Shown here: positions 10,385-63,956 of the stretch, piece by piece
Position numbering within the stretch: the stretch's first letter is position 1
Layout: every line of letters begins with the position of its first letter
Source: Alkalibacillus almallahensis
GTDB taxonomy: Bacteria > Bacillota > Bacilli > Bacillales > Alkalibacillaceae
Direction: 5' to 3'
Assembly: GCF_011761495.1 (NCBI RefSeq)
Contig: NZ_JAASRU010000008.1
Coordinates: 62,001 to 126,000 of the forward strand
Length of the DNA stretch: 64,000 nt
Made by a program: the position numbers and the translations under genes
The notes under the pieces: generated by a model
Databases searched by the model: none
What the model was told of the DNA's origin: nothing
Seen by the model: only the letters and a program-made list of their open reading frames with translations

Positions 10385-10672
10385 GTTGTTGATATTGTGA
10401 TACGCTTTCGGTGGACGCTTTCCGCAGGCACGGCTCAAGCCAGGCAACTACATCGAATAAGCTTCTTTGGAACTTGCACCGAGGAAGCCTACTTCGAAGC
10501 TTTACTAGTAGACGCAGGTGCATCCCTCGGCCGAAAAGCGTGGCCTGCGGGGTCTCGAGACGCGTGCTATTCCTGTGACGACCTGGATGGTCTAATGTCG
10601 ACGTTGGTCACAGGACGTGACCGCATTTAGTCGACCAGGAGTCGCCACCTTCGCTTCTCACAATTCAACAAC
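10385..10672. repeat. Mosaic palindromic repeat, copy B
   Basis: A 288-base element in the same orientation as copy A, with the same inverted ends (GTTGTTGATATTGTGA and TCACAATTCAACAAC). It has both internal modules of copy A, the CTTGCACCGAGGAAGCCTAC block and the GTCGACGTTGGTCACAGGAC block, at roughly 90% identity by eye. The extra bases of copy A are absent. It occupies most of the 500-base gap between pdp and dacF; no gene can be supported there. Confidence 0.8.
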
Positions 10673-59854: not shown

Positions 59855-61747
59855 TTAAGCTCTTTTCCTCTGGGTCGGCACAATTTCTTTTACTTCTTGT
59901 TCAATTTTTTCAACTGTTAGACCAACTTCTTCTAATAAATCATCAACACTTCCATGTTCAATGAATCGATCAGGAATTCCCATTCTAGAGATATATGGAA
60001 ATGGTAATTTTTCTACTTCAAAAAACTCTAATACGGCACTACCGAAGCCGCCTTGAAGTGCATGTTCTTCAACAGTTAAAATTGGTAATTTTTCTTGTGC
60101 TAATTGATGCATGAGGTTATGATCTAATGGCTTAATAAATCGAGCATTAACTACACGAACGGATATACCTTCTTTTTCTAATGAATGAGCTGCATCAAGC
60201 GCTCGAGGTATCATGGTACCAAATGTTAAAATCACTAAATCTTCGCCATCTTTAAGCACTTCCCATGAGCCTATAGGTATACTTTCGTAGTCGCCTAATT
60301 CCGGTTCATCACTTGCATTTCCACGCGGATAACGTAACGCCATTGGACCATCATCATTTTGAACAGCGGTATGAACCATGTTCTGACCTTCTTTTGCATC
60401 CTTTGGCATCATGATTTTCATATTTGGGAGATCTCGTAAAAACGAAATGTCAAAAACACCTTGATGCGTCTCTCCATCAGCTCCAACTAAACCAGCGCGG
60501 TCAATACCAAATATTACATTTAAATTTTGACGGCAAACATCATGAATGACTTGGTCATACCCACGTTGTAAGAACGTCGAGTAAATGGATAGTACTGGTT
60601 TCATTCCTTGGGTCGCTAATCCAGCAGATACTGTTGTCGCATGTTGTTCAGCGATACCTACATCGAATAATCGATCCGGAAAAGCCTTACGGAAGTCTTC
60701 TAATTTAGATCCCACCGTCATAGCTGGTGTAATGGCTACGATTCGCTCATCTGTCTTAGCAAGATCTATTAAGCTGTCACTAATCACTTTACTCCAGGCC
60801 TTACCTGATGAACCTTTTTTCACGGATTCTCCTGATTCAATCTTATAAGGTCCAACACCATGCCAAGTTCCAACCGTGTCATTTTCTGCAGGATGATACC
60901 CTTTACCTTTTGTTGTTAGAACATGAATAATAATTGGGCCTTCGGTTTTTTTAGCATAATCAATCGACTTAAATAAATCATCATAACTATGCCCATCTAC
61001 TGGACCGTAATAAGTAAAACCTAACTCTTCAAAAAACATACCCGGTACAACTAAATATTTCATACTATCTTTAATTCGCTCAGCAGTATTAGCTATTCTT
61101 CCACCTACTGTAGGGATCTTTTTAAGAAGAAATTCAAGTTCATCCTTCACCCAATTATACCGTTGTCCACTTCTTAAACGTGCTAACATATTATGCATCG
61201 CACCCACATTAGGTGCAATTGACATTTCATTATCATTTAAAATGACAATCATATTTTTCTTTTCGTGGCCGATGTGATTAAGTGCCTCTAAAGCCATACC
61301 ACCAGTTAAGGCACCATCCCCAATAATAGGTACAACGTGATGGTCTTCTTGTTTAATATCACGAGCAATAGCCATACCCATAGCTGCCGATAAGGAAGTG
61401 GAACTATGACCTGTTTCCCAAATGTCATGTTCACTTTCATTACGTTTTGGAAAACCACATAGCCCTTGGTATTGTCTTAAGGTTGAAAATTGATCAGTTC
61501 TACCGGTTAACATTTTATGAACATAAGCTTGATGGCCTACGTCCCATAGAAATTTATCATTAGGGCTGTCAAATTCTTGGTGCAATGCTAACGTTAACTC
61601 CACAACACCTAAATTAGGGCCAAGATGACCACCTGTTTCAGATAAATTATTAATTAAAAATGATCGAATATCTCCGCTAAGCTTAATCAATTCATCTCTA
61701 GACAAATGTTTAATTTGAGAAGGATGTTCAATGCTTTGAAGATCCAT
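59855..61747 (-). CDS. dxs: 1-deoxy-D-xylulose-5-phosphate synthase
   Basis: A 630-residue thiamine-diphosphate enzyme that condenses pyruvate and glyceraldehyde-3-phosphate, the entry step of the MEP isoprenoid pathway. The TPP motif is [18 protein letters not shown] to ILNDNEMSI. The transketolase pyrimidine domain has [19 protein letters not shown], with the catalytic glutamate and histidine, and [17 protein letters not shown]. It sits with ispA of the same pathway, separated only by the OLE RNA and oapA. Confidence 0.97.
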
Positions 61748-61799: not shown

Positions 61800-62384
61800 T
61801 TATCGTTTTTTATTTGATGGTAACAAACGTATTCTTAGTGTGTCTTCAATTATAGCTGTAACTTTACCTGCAAATAAAACTAAATCTGTTGATAATCTTA
61901 CAGCTAATGACTTCCCTAACGCCTTACCACCTACAGTTAGAGCTGCGACTAAACTTGTAAAAATAATACCAATCACAAATTGATATGTACTTATATCCCC
62001 ATCTGTAATAACTGTTGCTAACTGAATCACAACAAGTGTTGAAGCGGTACCACTTATGACACCAGCAATATCTCCAATAACATCATTACAAAAGGTAGCA
62101 AACTTATCAGCATTTCGAACAATTCGAATAGCATTTTTAGCGCCATAAACTTTTTCTGAGGCCATGGAATGGAAAGGTTTTTCACTTGCTGCAGTCGCTG
62201 CTATTCCTAACATATCTGATAGTACACCAATCAATACGATCGTTAAGACAATGATAATACCTATAAACCAATTTACGCCACCTAAAACACCTTGTGAAAC
62301 GATTGAAAAAATGGCCGCTAACACAAAAGTGATAACGGCAATACTTATACTAAACCTTATGGATTCTTTTATAATCTTGAGCAT
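61800..62384 (-). CDS. oapA: OapA, OLE RNA-associated membrane protein
   Basis: A 194-residue membrane protein with about four hydrophobic segments (near 10-31, 38-58, 104-122 and 134-152). A conserved loop, SDMLGIAATAASEKPFHSMA, precedes GAKNAIRIVRNADKFATFCN; these recall the DUF21/CNNM-like core of some magnesium transporters. RLSTD at about 173-177 fits an RxxxD motif. Its position directly after the OLE RNA and before dxs is that of OapA in Bacillus halodurans, which tethers OLE RNA to the membrane. The ATG at 62384 is five bases after CGAGGTC; the open frame ten codons upstream is rejected. Confidence 0.88.
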   Translation of the reverse strand: MLKIIKESIRFSISIAVITFVLAAIFSIVSQGVLGGVNWFIGIIIVLTIVLIGVLSDMLGIAATAASEKPFHSMASEKVYGAKNAIRIVRNADKFATFCNDVIGDIAGVISGTASTLVVIQLATVITDGDISTYQFVIGIIFTSLVAALTVGGKALGKSLAVRLSTDLVLFAGKVTAIIEDTLRIRLLPSNKKR

Positions 62385-62452
62385 TTGTTGACCTCGTATT
62401 TTTATACATTCCAACCCTATTATGTAACGAAAGGGATGGTCATTTAAAAGGT

Positions 62453-63038
62453 AAAAATTGCGGCTTAGGTCCAGCAGGTTTTCCCAGGTCGTTACCGTGT
62501 GTTGCCACTACGGAGGTTCCCCTTTAAAACGACCCCAGCTCCGTTTCCGGATGCTAAACTGGATTACCACTTAGCCCGCACTATAATCCCTTTTAAATGT
62601 CTTGTGGAACAGTCTAGGAGTTTTCCTCGGCAGCCTTTGACCACTTCCTAGCCTCTTTTGCAGTGTCTATTTCATACAACGTTGCGAGTGTTTCATTCGC
62701 TGGCCACACGACTGAACACTATATGGTTGTAATCCCCTACACACCACTCAAGGCAGGCTACGCTGCAGATAACGAATTCCTCGCTATCATACAGGTTCAT
62801 ACCCCATTTCATACCTTATAATCATGTGTTATAAGGCACAAATATGGGCCTCCACGGAAGCAGGGTCAACGCCCACATGCCATTGTGGATCGCCCTACGA
62901 CCTTAACTCCCAGCATCGACCCAAGGCTGGGCGCCTCAAGCCAACACCAGGAACTTCATCGATGTGCCCTTTGGCGGATTTTTAGGCCCGCCTTCAGAAG
63001 CGGAGGACCGACTAGAATACTGCACCACCCCTTGTGTA
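62453..63038 (-). ncRNA. ole: OLE RNA (ornate, large, extremophilic)
   Basis: About 590 bases between ispA and oapA with no codable frame but clearly higher G+C than the flanks and many helices. These include GGTCCTCCGCTT/AAGGCGGGCC near the 5' end (62985-63010), CCCAGC/GCTGGG (62911-62933), CCTTATAA/TTATAAGG (62814-62836), and GGTCGTT pairing with AACGACC in the 3' domain; GCGGGCTAAG and CTAAGCCGC near the 3' end may close it. Size, location and the adjoining oapA agree with OLE RNA, which forms a membrane ribonucleoprotein with OapA and is linked to cold, alcohol and magnesium stress in B. halodurans. Ends are approximate. Confidence 0.88.
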
Positions 63039-63044
63039 ATTCCT

Positions 63045-63073
63045 ATTTTACCATATTACGATTATACTCACAA
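63045..63073 (-). promoter_or_regulatory. Sigma-A promoter for the OLE RNA
   Basis: The minus strand shows TTGTGA, a 17-base spacer and TAAAAT, with transcription expected near 63038. It overlaps nothing coding, lying just past the ispA stop. It would let OLE RNA be made at higher levels than the read-through ispA message. Confidence 0.5.
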
Positions 63074-63083
63074 TTATGTGCAC

Positions 63084-63956
63084 TCAGTTATTTCTGCGAC
63101 CAAATAGATTAATAAATGCTATTAGATTTTCATCATTAACATTAGCCTCATTTAATGCATTCACTGCTTTAGTCATACAATCTTCTCGCCATTCTATTGC
63201 CTGTTCTAAACCAAGTAAGCTCGGGAACGTATTTTTATGTAAGGAGACATCACTTCCTATTGGTTTCCCTAGCTCATCTTCACTTCCTGTCACATCCAAA
63301 ATATCATCCTGTATTTGAAAAATCATTCCTAAGTAGAATGCATATCGATCAAGTGATTCAATTTGCGGAGGTATAGCACCACCCAAATAAGCACCTATTT
63401 TAACAGCTGCGCGGATTAGTGCCCCTGTTTTGTACCGATGTACTAACTCCAATTGATCAATTGTGATTGACTTACCTTCTGATTGTAAATCAAGAAATTG
63501 ACCTTGGATCATTCCTTCAAAGCCACTCGCCTGACTTAATTGTTGTGTCACGTATACTTTTTCTTCAGCATCCAAATAAGAACTGTTTGCGATCAATTGA
63601 AAAGCATAAGTTAAGAATCCATCGCCTACAAGAATCGCTGTCGCTTCATCAAATTGCTTGTGGATTGTCGGTTGACCACGTCGTAAATCGTCATCATCCA
63701 TAGCAGGTAGGTCATCGTGAATTAATGAGTATGTATGAACAAGCTCAAGCGCAAGCATGACATCGCTCATTTTTTGAGTGTGTTCCGAAAAAACACGGAA
63801 GGTTTCTTGCATTAATATAGGACGAAGCCGTTTACCCCCTGCGCTAATTGCATATTGGACGGCTTGTTGAAATTCTTGAGGCAAATCTAATTGACCAAGG
63901 TGATTTATAAGTAACTGATCAACATCATTTTTATAACTTTCTAATTGCATAGTCAC
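63084..63956 (-). CDS. ispA: Farnesyl diphosphate synthase
   Basis: A 290-residue trans-prenyltransferase that builds geranyl and farnesyl diphosphate. The first aspartate-rich motif is LIHDDLPAMDDDDLRRGQ near residue 85 and the second is FQIQDDILDVTGSEDELGK near residue 220; GGKRLRPILM precedes the first. The GTG start at 63956 overlaps the xseB stop by two bases (GTGA) with GGAGG ten bases ahead; an ATG two codons later is also possible. Order xseB-ispA is as in B. subtilis. Confidence 0.94.
   Translation of the reverse strand: MTMQLESYKNDVDQLLINHLGQLDLPQEFQQAVQYAISAGGKRLRPILMQETFRVFSEHTQKMSDVMLALELVHTYSLIHDDLPAMDDDDLRRGQPTIHKQFDEATAILVGDGFLTYAFQLIANSSYLDAEEKVYVTQQLSQASGFEGMIQGQFLDLQSEGKSITIDQLELVHRYKTGALIRAAVKIGAYLGGAIPPQIESLDRYAFYLGMIFQIQDDILDVTGSEDELGKPIGSDVSLHKNTFPSLLGLEQAIEWREDCMTKAVNALNEANVNDENLIAFINLFGRRNN

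Follow-up and report, generated by a model that had tools for sequence, protein, structure and literature searches.

The 64,000-nucleotide stretch of Alkalibacillus almallahensis DNA analyzed here (the window) carries, on its minus strand, a 625-nt RNA gene (62420..63044) set among isoprenoid genes. Upstream lies ispA, encoding farnesyl diphosphate synthase (63084..63956, minus strand; NCBIfam NF045485, E 2.8e-105). Downstream on the same strand are oapA, encoding a 194-residue CNNM-like membrane protein (61800..62384), and dxs, encoding 1-deoxy-D-xylulose-5-phosphate synthase (59855..61747; TIGR00204, E 5e-283); the reading frames beyond dxs are presumably tlyA, argR, and recN. The minus-strand segment 63044-62420 is a complete OLE RNA of the RF01071 class. 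The cmscan match spans positions 1-616 of the 616-position model at 522 bits (E 3.1e-150; gathering score 50), is untruncated, and has every stem aligned, including P7, P8, the long P9, and P13; it is also the only RF01071 match in the organism's genome. A preliminary description of the window had proposed an OLE RNA at this place and suggested a covariance-model search, which was run and bears out both the identification and the strand, with bounds slightly shorter than the 62400-63083 originally given. OLE positions are numbered below such that position p corresponds to window position 63045 - p.

The same description had portrayed the interval as a gap devoid of genes, rich in GC, and full of helices, and these three features are all borne out. 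The mechanical list of reading frames holds no sense-strand (minus) frame of at least 40 residues between 62415 and 63083, by which a protein-coding gene in the OLE interval is ruled out; antisense (plus-strand) frames of 47-75 residues do occur across it. The GC content of the match is 0.49, compared with 0.31-0.43 in 300-base windows outside, and its minimum free energy of folding (-237.3 kcal/mol) lies below that of all 20 shuffled sequences (-197.9 +/- 7.1 kcal/mol; z -5.5). Neither a missing covariance-model hit nor a translated segment, the two outcomes named beforehand as speaking against an OLE RNA, was encountered: the match is full-length, and a sense-strand frame of that size is absent.

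A σA promoter had also been predicted on the 5' side of the RNA, and a candidate is present: TTGTGA-17-TAAAAT (63045..63073, minus strand), with an extended -10 in which TG precedes the -10 element, ends one base before the OLE match. The promoter scan as a whole performs at chance level (9 sites found, 6.1 +/- 2.7 expected), and the assignment is based on the match to consensus and on conserved position, an extended -10 (TGnTAnnnT) being found at the equivalent site upstream of OLE in all 20 of the related loci inspected, from a set of 80. No clear terminator follows the RNA; the scan gave two terminator-like sites on the minus strand, compared with 1.2 +/- 1.1 expected by chance, and both lie inside it. 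This last observation, together with the arrangement of the two genes, oapA being the next gene in the same direction with its ATG at 62384 lying 36 nt beyond the RNA, is what might be expected if the segment were mainly a structured, riboswitch-like 5' leader switching the transcription or translation of oapA and dxs in cis, and PMC12265935 reports the Halalkalibacterium halodurans cluster as a single polycistronic RNA. Against such a leader stand the coverage of the entire 616-position OLE model and the distribution of conserved positions, which run the full length of the RNA, unlike a ligand pocket coupled to an expression platform. OLE is, moreover, described in PMC12265935 and PMC11332333 as an abundant separate RNA that forms a ribonucleoprotein with knock-out phenotypes. 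We consider a role mainly as a cis-acting leader to be highly unlikely.

The copy in the window is intact and typical of its known class, and its sequence variation remains within the range of the family. Some non-standard pairs occur, chiefly in P9, and these could be taken as the mark of a decayed or non-functional remnant in this strain; such a remnant is extremely improbable, given that the match is full-length and its 522 bits fall inside the range of 473-545 bits spanned by the OLEs of 47 relatives, that the conserved blocks are unbroken when compared with aligned OLEs, and that oapA and the other partner genes are intact. Among the latter, OapB is encoded in the same genome (L037:2273-2611; E 9.5e-33 to PDB 7k9b, "OLE-associated protein B") by a gene adjoining infA. 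A YbxF/OapC-like protein, the best PDB relatives of which are the L7Ae-like 3v7e and 4lck (the latter named YbxF), is encoded between genes reading as rpoC and rpsL (L032:1489-1740), and bS21 is likewise encoded in the genome.

The protein encoded immediately downstream has the hallmarks of OapA, the protein partner that had been predicted to follow the RNA, in its position, its motif, and a predicted CNNM-like fold that is weak at the level of sequence. Its ATG lies at 62384; the mechanical list of reading frames instead begins the frame at an upstream TTG (62414). The DxxxD motif, named as distinctive of OapA in PMC11332333, is present as DVIGD at residues 101-105 of 194. Among 47 relatives with OLE, the start of oapA is within 107 nt of the end of the RNA in 46, and DxxxD is present in all 46 intact OapAs (as DVIGD, with a single DVVGD). 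In the remaining relative (L021, genome G017, 82% complete), the oapA downstream of OLE is split over two frames, probably through an assembly or sequencing error; the CNNM gene of the same genome likewise has a stop and split matches. The window's OapA is 56-98% identical to 29 proteins from named Bacillaceae-type genera, all of them retrieved as OapA relatives; the figure is 98% for Alkalibacillus salilacus, and the four remaining Alkalibacillus records lie at 76-78%.

A search of the 194-residue sequence against Pfam and NCBIfam gave no family at E 0.001, and CBS and CorC_HlyC domains are absent by the Pfam search. Its match to Pfam CNNM scores 9 bits (E 1.4), below the cut-off of 28.4; 27 of 30 aligned OapAs have a CNNM match at E ≤ 10 (best E 6.4e-5), and when 60 genomes were scanned for CNNM, the gene adjacent to OLE gave a weak match (19.7-29.4 bits) in 16. 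The AlphaFold2 model (pLDDT 74, pTM 0.62) consists mostly of helices. When it was searched with Foldseek, the top three of 65 matches were to the archaeal CNNM protein MtCorB (probability 0.98-1.00, TM 0.41-0.54), with none of the 65 at E 0.001 or better. OapA therefore shares with the MpfA/CorB Mg2+ transporters a predicted fold matching the CNNM domain of MtCorB, but differs from them in being 194 residues long, in lacking the CBS and CorC_HlyC domains, and in having the DxxxD motif.

An anticorrelation between MpfA and OLE is reported in PMC11332333. CNNM/MpfA genes were counted by hand from the scan of 60 genomes after removal of OapA-like matches and fragments, giving a mean of 1.64 per genome with OLE (n = 47) compared with 2.92 without (n = 13; p 1.6e-4). 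If the window's own family is left out, the mean with OLE is 2.08 (n = 25) versus 2.92 (p 0.014). A single CNNM gene, located at the edge of a contig, remains in the window's own genome.

OLE was found in 47 of these 60 related genomes, in 284 of 398 genomes sampled across the phylum, and in none of 14 control genomes. When 80 named loci were retrieved by OapA alone, 79 had ordered OLE motifs upstream of oapA, and RF01071 was confirmed in all 11 that were scanned; OLE and OapA thus travel together, as published. In the 80th locus, from Gracilibacillus timonensis (L382), the OLE motifs are present and altered in conserved blocks, e.g. GACCTATGCCGCAG. Six genomes had more than one OLE match, and because the pieces lie mostly at contig ends, they are read as broken assemblies rather than split RNAs. 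OLE is also broken at contig ends in several assemblies (L192-L195, L200, L202, L204, L205, L207, and others); perhaps the conserved RNA breaks metagenome assembly. The members of Alkalibacillus are halo-alkaliphilic, and the extremophile lifestyle suggested in the preliminary description fits the genus; OLE is so widespread across the phylum, however, that by itself it is a weak indicator of lifestyle. That description's choice of the locus as the clearest unusual system in the window overstated its novelty, since the class is already well studied.

A phage or plasmid origin of the window's OLE was considered and rejected on searches of phages, plasmids, and viral contigs. No OLE-like DNA was found in 50,697 phage records, and 72,556 plasmid records gave one short match. 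In viral contigs, none of 57 pattern matches to OapA relatives was confirmed, and an exact 19-nt OLE core was not found. As a separate observation, the 504-kb record pMM59_01 of Pusillibacter faecalis (NZ_AP023421.1), which is called a conjugative plasmid, carries a full-length OLE (L056:7986-8650; 399.8 bits) and a gene for a CNNM-domain protein, followed by dxs, a tlyA-type gene, NAD kinase, argR, and recN; with these core genes, it looks like a chromid.

Elsewhere in the window, two Rfam Bacillaceae-1 RNAs (330-525, 45.1 bits, and 10475-10670, 44.2 bits; both minus strand) occur as modules within a longer intergenic repeat, for which 56 matching pieces were obtained in the same genome with a 196-nt query. 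Comparison of 26 repeat loci (the other copies being L395-L420) revealed end blocks common to the copies and internal blocks, sharply bordered, that are retained in some copies and missing or enlarged in others; block 167-249 of the query is missing in 9 of the 26. The repeat appears to be a modular family that is possibly mobile.

We turn now to the architecture of the RNA itself, for which stem names beyond those in published text are our own assignment. Domain 1 retains the loops through which OLE dimerizes. In PMC12265935, the 5' domain is described as dimeric, the two copies being joined through the A-rich loops of P4, kissing loops of P5.1 and P6.1, and a loop-loop contact of P9. In the window's RNA, the P4 loop CCUAAAAAUCC (62976..62986, minus strand) is conserved in 175 aligned OLEs; the conserved P5.1 loop GCCCA (62928..62932) has 3 nt complementary to its partner, the likewise conserved P6.1 loop UGGC (62879..62882); and the P9 loop UGGCCA (62701..62706) is self-complementary, being less conserved outside its GGCC core across the 175 OLEs (all minus strand). 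The stems P1, P2, and P3/P3.1 are missing from the cmscan structure line, yet they are strongly supported by covariation (OLE 12-21:605-614, 23-25:433-435, 29-33:428-432, 35-40:409-414, and 42-49:397-404), their innermost and outermost pairs being variable.

P3/P3.1 is of particular interest because, in the same 2025 review (PMC12265935), it is suggested to span the membrane, with domain 2 outside. Its 5' strand, OLE 35-49 (62996..63010, minus strand), covaries with OLE 397-414 (62631..62648, minus strand). The sequence of the stem varies (mean identity 0.58), whereas its 5' strand measures 15 or 16 nt in 172 of 175 OLEs, as against 23-57 nt for P7, 24-53 nt for P8, and 40-117 nt for P9; these counts exclude an anchor-based recount, which missed 161 of 340 5' strands and 129 of 340 3' strands. 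P1 (10 nt) and the strand 446-456 (11 nt) are each of the same length in 174 of 175, so P3 is not exceptional in its fixed length, and this argues neither for nor against the membrane-spanning model.

Domain 2 was searched for covariation beyond the known helices. The discovery set consisted of 175 aligned OLEs of 177 gathered (L088 and L130 were dropped, the motif not being found), and the held-out set of 85 of 86 gathered (L245 was dropped, and L088 and L130 re-entered as L313 and L314). Insertions were stripped from the held-out rows on their addition to the alignment, five of the 85 being gapped at the positions of interest, 566 or 588, and the candidate pairs were recorded before these 85 sequences were examined. 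Concerted changes on a tree were scored at pairs outside helices, in each set and in the joint set of 260. A global APC-corrected test was of low power: 26 pairs reached E < 0.05, of which 19 are among the 140 Rfam pairs.

The two strongest signals in the joint set come from a mini-hairpin at OLE 523-530 (62515..62522, minus strand), with the sequence GG(GGAA)CC in the window and GG(GAAA)CC in most relatives. Its pairs 524:529 and 523:530 covary from GC to AU, ranking first and second of 99,265, and pairing is kept in 256 of 256 and 255 of 256 OLEs, respectively. This GG(GNAA)CC element is most likely the published P13 bound by OapB and thus not new. A second mini-hairpin, GG(GAAAX)CC at OLE 560-568 (62477..62485, minus strand), is paired in 254 of 254 OLEs at both base pairs, an almost invariant pairing that leaves no covariation to test. 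Here, X is OLE 566 (window 62479), which would be left free by this pairing as the last base of a GNRA-like pentaloop; our guess is that P15 corresponds to this hairpin.

Position 566 covaries with OLE 588 (62457, minus strand), which lies two bases past the strand 582-586. In the discovery set, 566:588 ranks second of 78,307 non-helical pairs by concerted changes, behind 523:530 (p 10^-5.3, not significant after Bonferroni correction). In the held-out set, it shows 7 concerted changes compared with 2.34 expected (p 0.01, rank 171 of 78,291). The joint set of 260 gives 18 compared with 3.58 expected (p 10^-7.3, significant after Bonferroni correction over 99,265 pairs), and the pair ranks third, behind 524:529 and 523:530. 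None of 1500 tree simulations reaches the association of 566:588, whether in the discovery, held-out, or joint set (held-out G 88.5; null maximum 56.2). The combinations are principally A-U (106), A.C (67), and U-A (49), with G.A, C.A, and U.G as minor forms among the 260 OLEs. Of the 80 named Bacillaceae-type loci, 68 were readable, with A-U in 65, U-U in one, and U-A in two from Halalkalibacter. Exceptions with G.C, G.G, A.A, or A.G are seen in the plasmid copy and in a few OLE variants of low score, so the rule is not absolute.

Shared ancestry or alignment could have produced this covariation as a by-product, with no physical contact between the two positions, and we regard that explanation as a serious one, somewhat short of an even chance. 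In its favor, 566:588 fails the global APC-corrected test (its score is 132, and the maxima of 20 null simulations extend up to 191), the significance of the discovery and held-out sets taken singly is limited, as given above, and the held-out OLEs are not fully independent, since families are shared between the sets. Position 588 is also associated, more weakly, with 462 (16 of 1500 simulations reach this association in the held-out set). What speaks against a by-product is the placement of both positions in well-aligned, near-invariant frames (GGGAAA-X-CC and CAA-Y-nUUUA), the margin over every tree simulation in all three sets, the survival of Bonferroni correction in the joint set, and the dominance of A-U, A.C, and U-A among the combinations. 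If the two positions do touch, the cmscan structure, in which 566 lies inside and 588 outside both the helices 482-487:570-575 and 465-469:582-586, implies that the contact would either be pseudoknot-like or link one RNA of a dimer to the other. A further pair in domain 2, 480:488 (window 62565 and 62557), covaries among A.C, G.U, and A.U; its positions are on one strand, flanking a helix, and its association is exceeded in none of 1500 simulations for the held-out set and in two of 1500 for the discovery set.

Between the same two helices lie OLE 471-475 (62570..62574, minus strand) and, facing it, OLE 577-581 (62464..62468, minus strand), both of which read CUAAG in the window. The CUAAG/CUAAG combination is found in 199 of 260 OLEs and CUUAG/CUAUG in 14; in the latter, the mismatch shifts by one position and four pairs are kept. 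The alignment supports the prediction of a helix with a shifting mismatch, which would account for the covariation of 473:580 (A.A to U.U). Taken together, these data lead us to propose, tentatively and as rather less probable than its opposite, a previously unreported tertiary or inter-subunit contact in domain 2 at 566:588, along with a loop closed by a CUAAG/CUAAG helix with a movable mismatch. The 566:588 contact may already be in print.

Placed beside known systems, the locus most resembles that of Halalkalibacterium (Bacillus) halodurans in its full model match, the downstream oapA, and the surrounding isoprenoid genes. The OapB, YbxF-type, and bS21 genes of that system are likewise in the window's genome, and no defining difference between the two OLEs was found. 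The P4, P5.1/P6.1, and P9 loop features of the cryo-EM dimer of Clostridium acetobutylicum OLE (PMC12286853) are also present in the window's RNA; the published models cover the 5' domain only, whereas 566:588 and CUAAG/CUAAG lie in domain 2. OLE variants 1 and 2 of the TANB77 and RF39 clades (PMC11332333) have the conserved core in common with the window's RNA, but the latter, unlike them, keeps P7, P8, P9, and the arm of P13. Its 522 bits can be compared only roughly with the full-length threshold of 390 given in that paper, as that value was set with the paper's own model. A search of the open-licence literature returned no paper on OLE RNA in Alkalibacillus, and one directed at tertiary contacts and covariation in OLE placed the known OLE papers first.

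The locus is very probably an OLE ribonucleoprotein locus of an Alkalibacillus. According to the literature on H. halodurans and clostridial OLEs, the RNA dimerizes, binds OapA (at least 2:1), and reaches the membrane, and cells that lose it tolerate cold, high Mg2+, short-chain alcohols, and poor carbon sources less well. By analogy, we infer that the window's OLE is expressed and acts as in other species, the mechanism being borrowed from them. Domain 1 (P3-P9) would dimerize via the loops of P4, P5.1/P6.1, and P9, and OapA, as a CNNM-like relative of Mg2+ transporters, would anchor the RNA. The P3/P3.1 stem would then lead into domain 2 (P1, P2, and P10-P15), held by OapB at P13 and, as proposed here, by the 566:588 contact and the CUAAG/CUAAG helix. 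As a whole, the complex would serve to detect, or to respond to, membrane and Mg2+ stress.

Few conserved bacterial RNAs that lack a known biochemical role are as large as OLE, and in Alkalibacillus it is accompanied by its full complement of partners: OapA, OapB, a YbxF-like protein, and bS21. The interest lies in this open question and in the prediction for domain 2 rather than in the window's copy as such. The 566:588 pair and the CUAAG helix offer a testable constraint on a domain that cryo-EM left unresolved, and, if true, this would be the first sequence-based constraint on it. The contact would either double the arm of domain 2 back or link the two RNA subunits of the dimer at this domain, and, if inter-subunit, it would show how domain 2 dimerizes.
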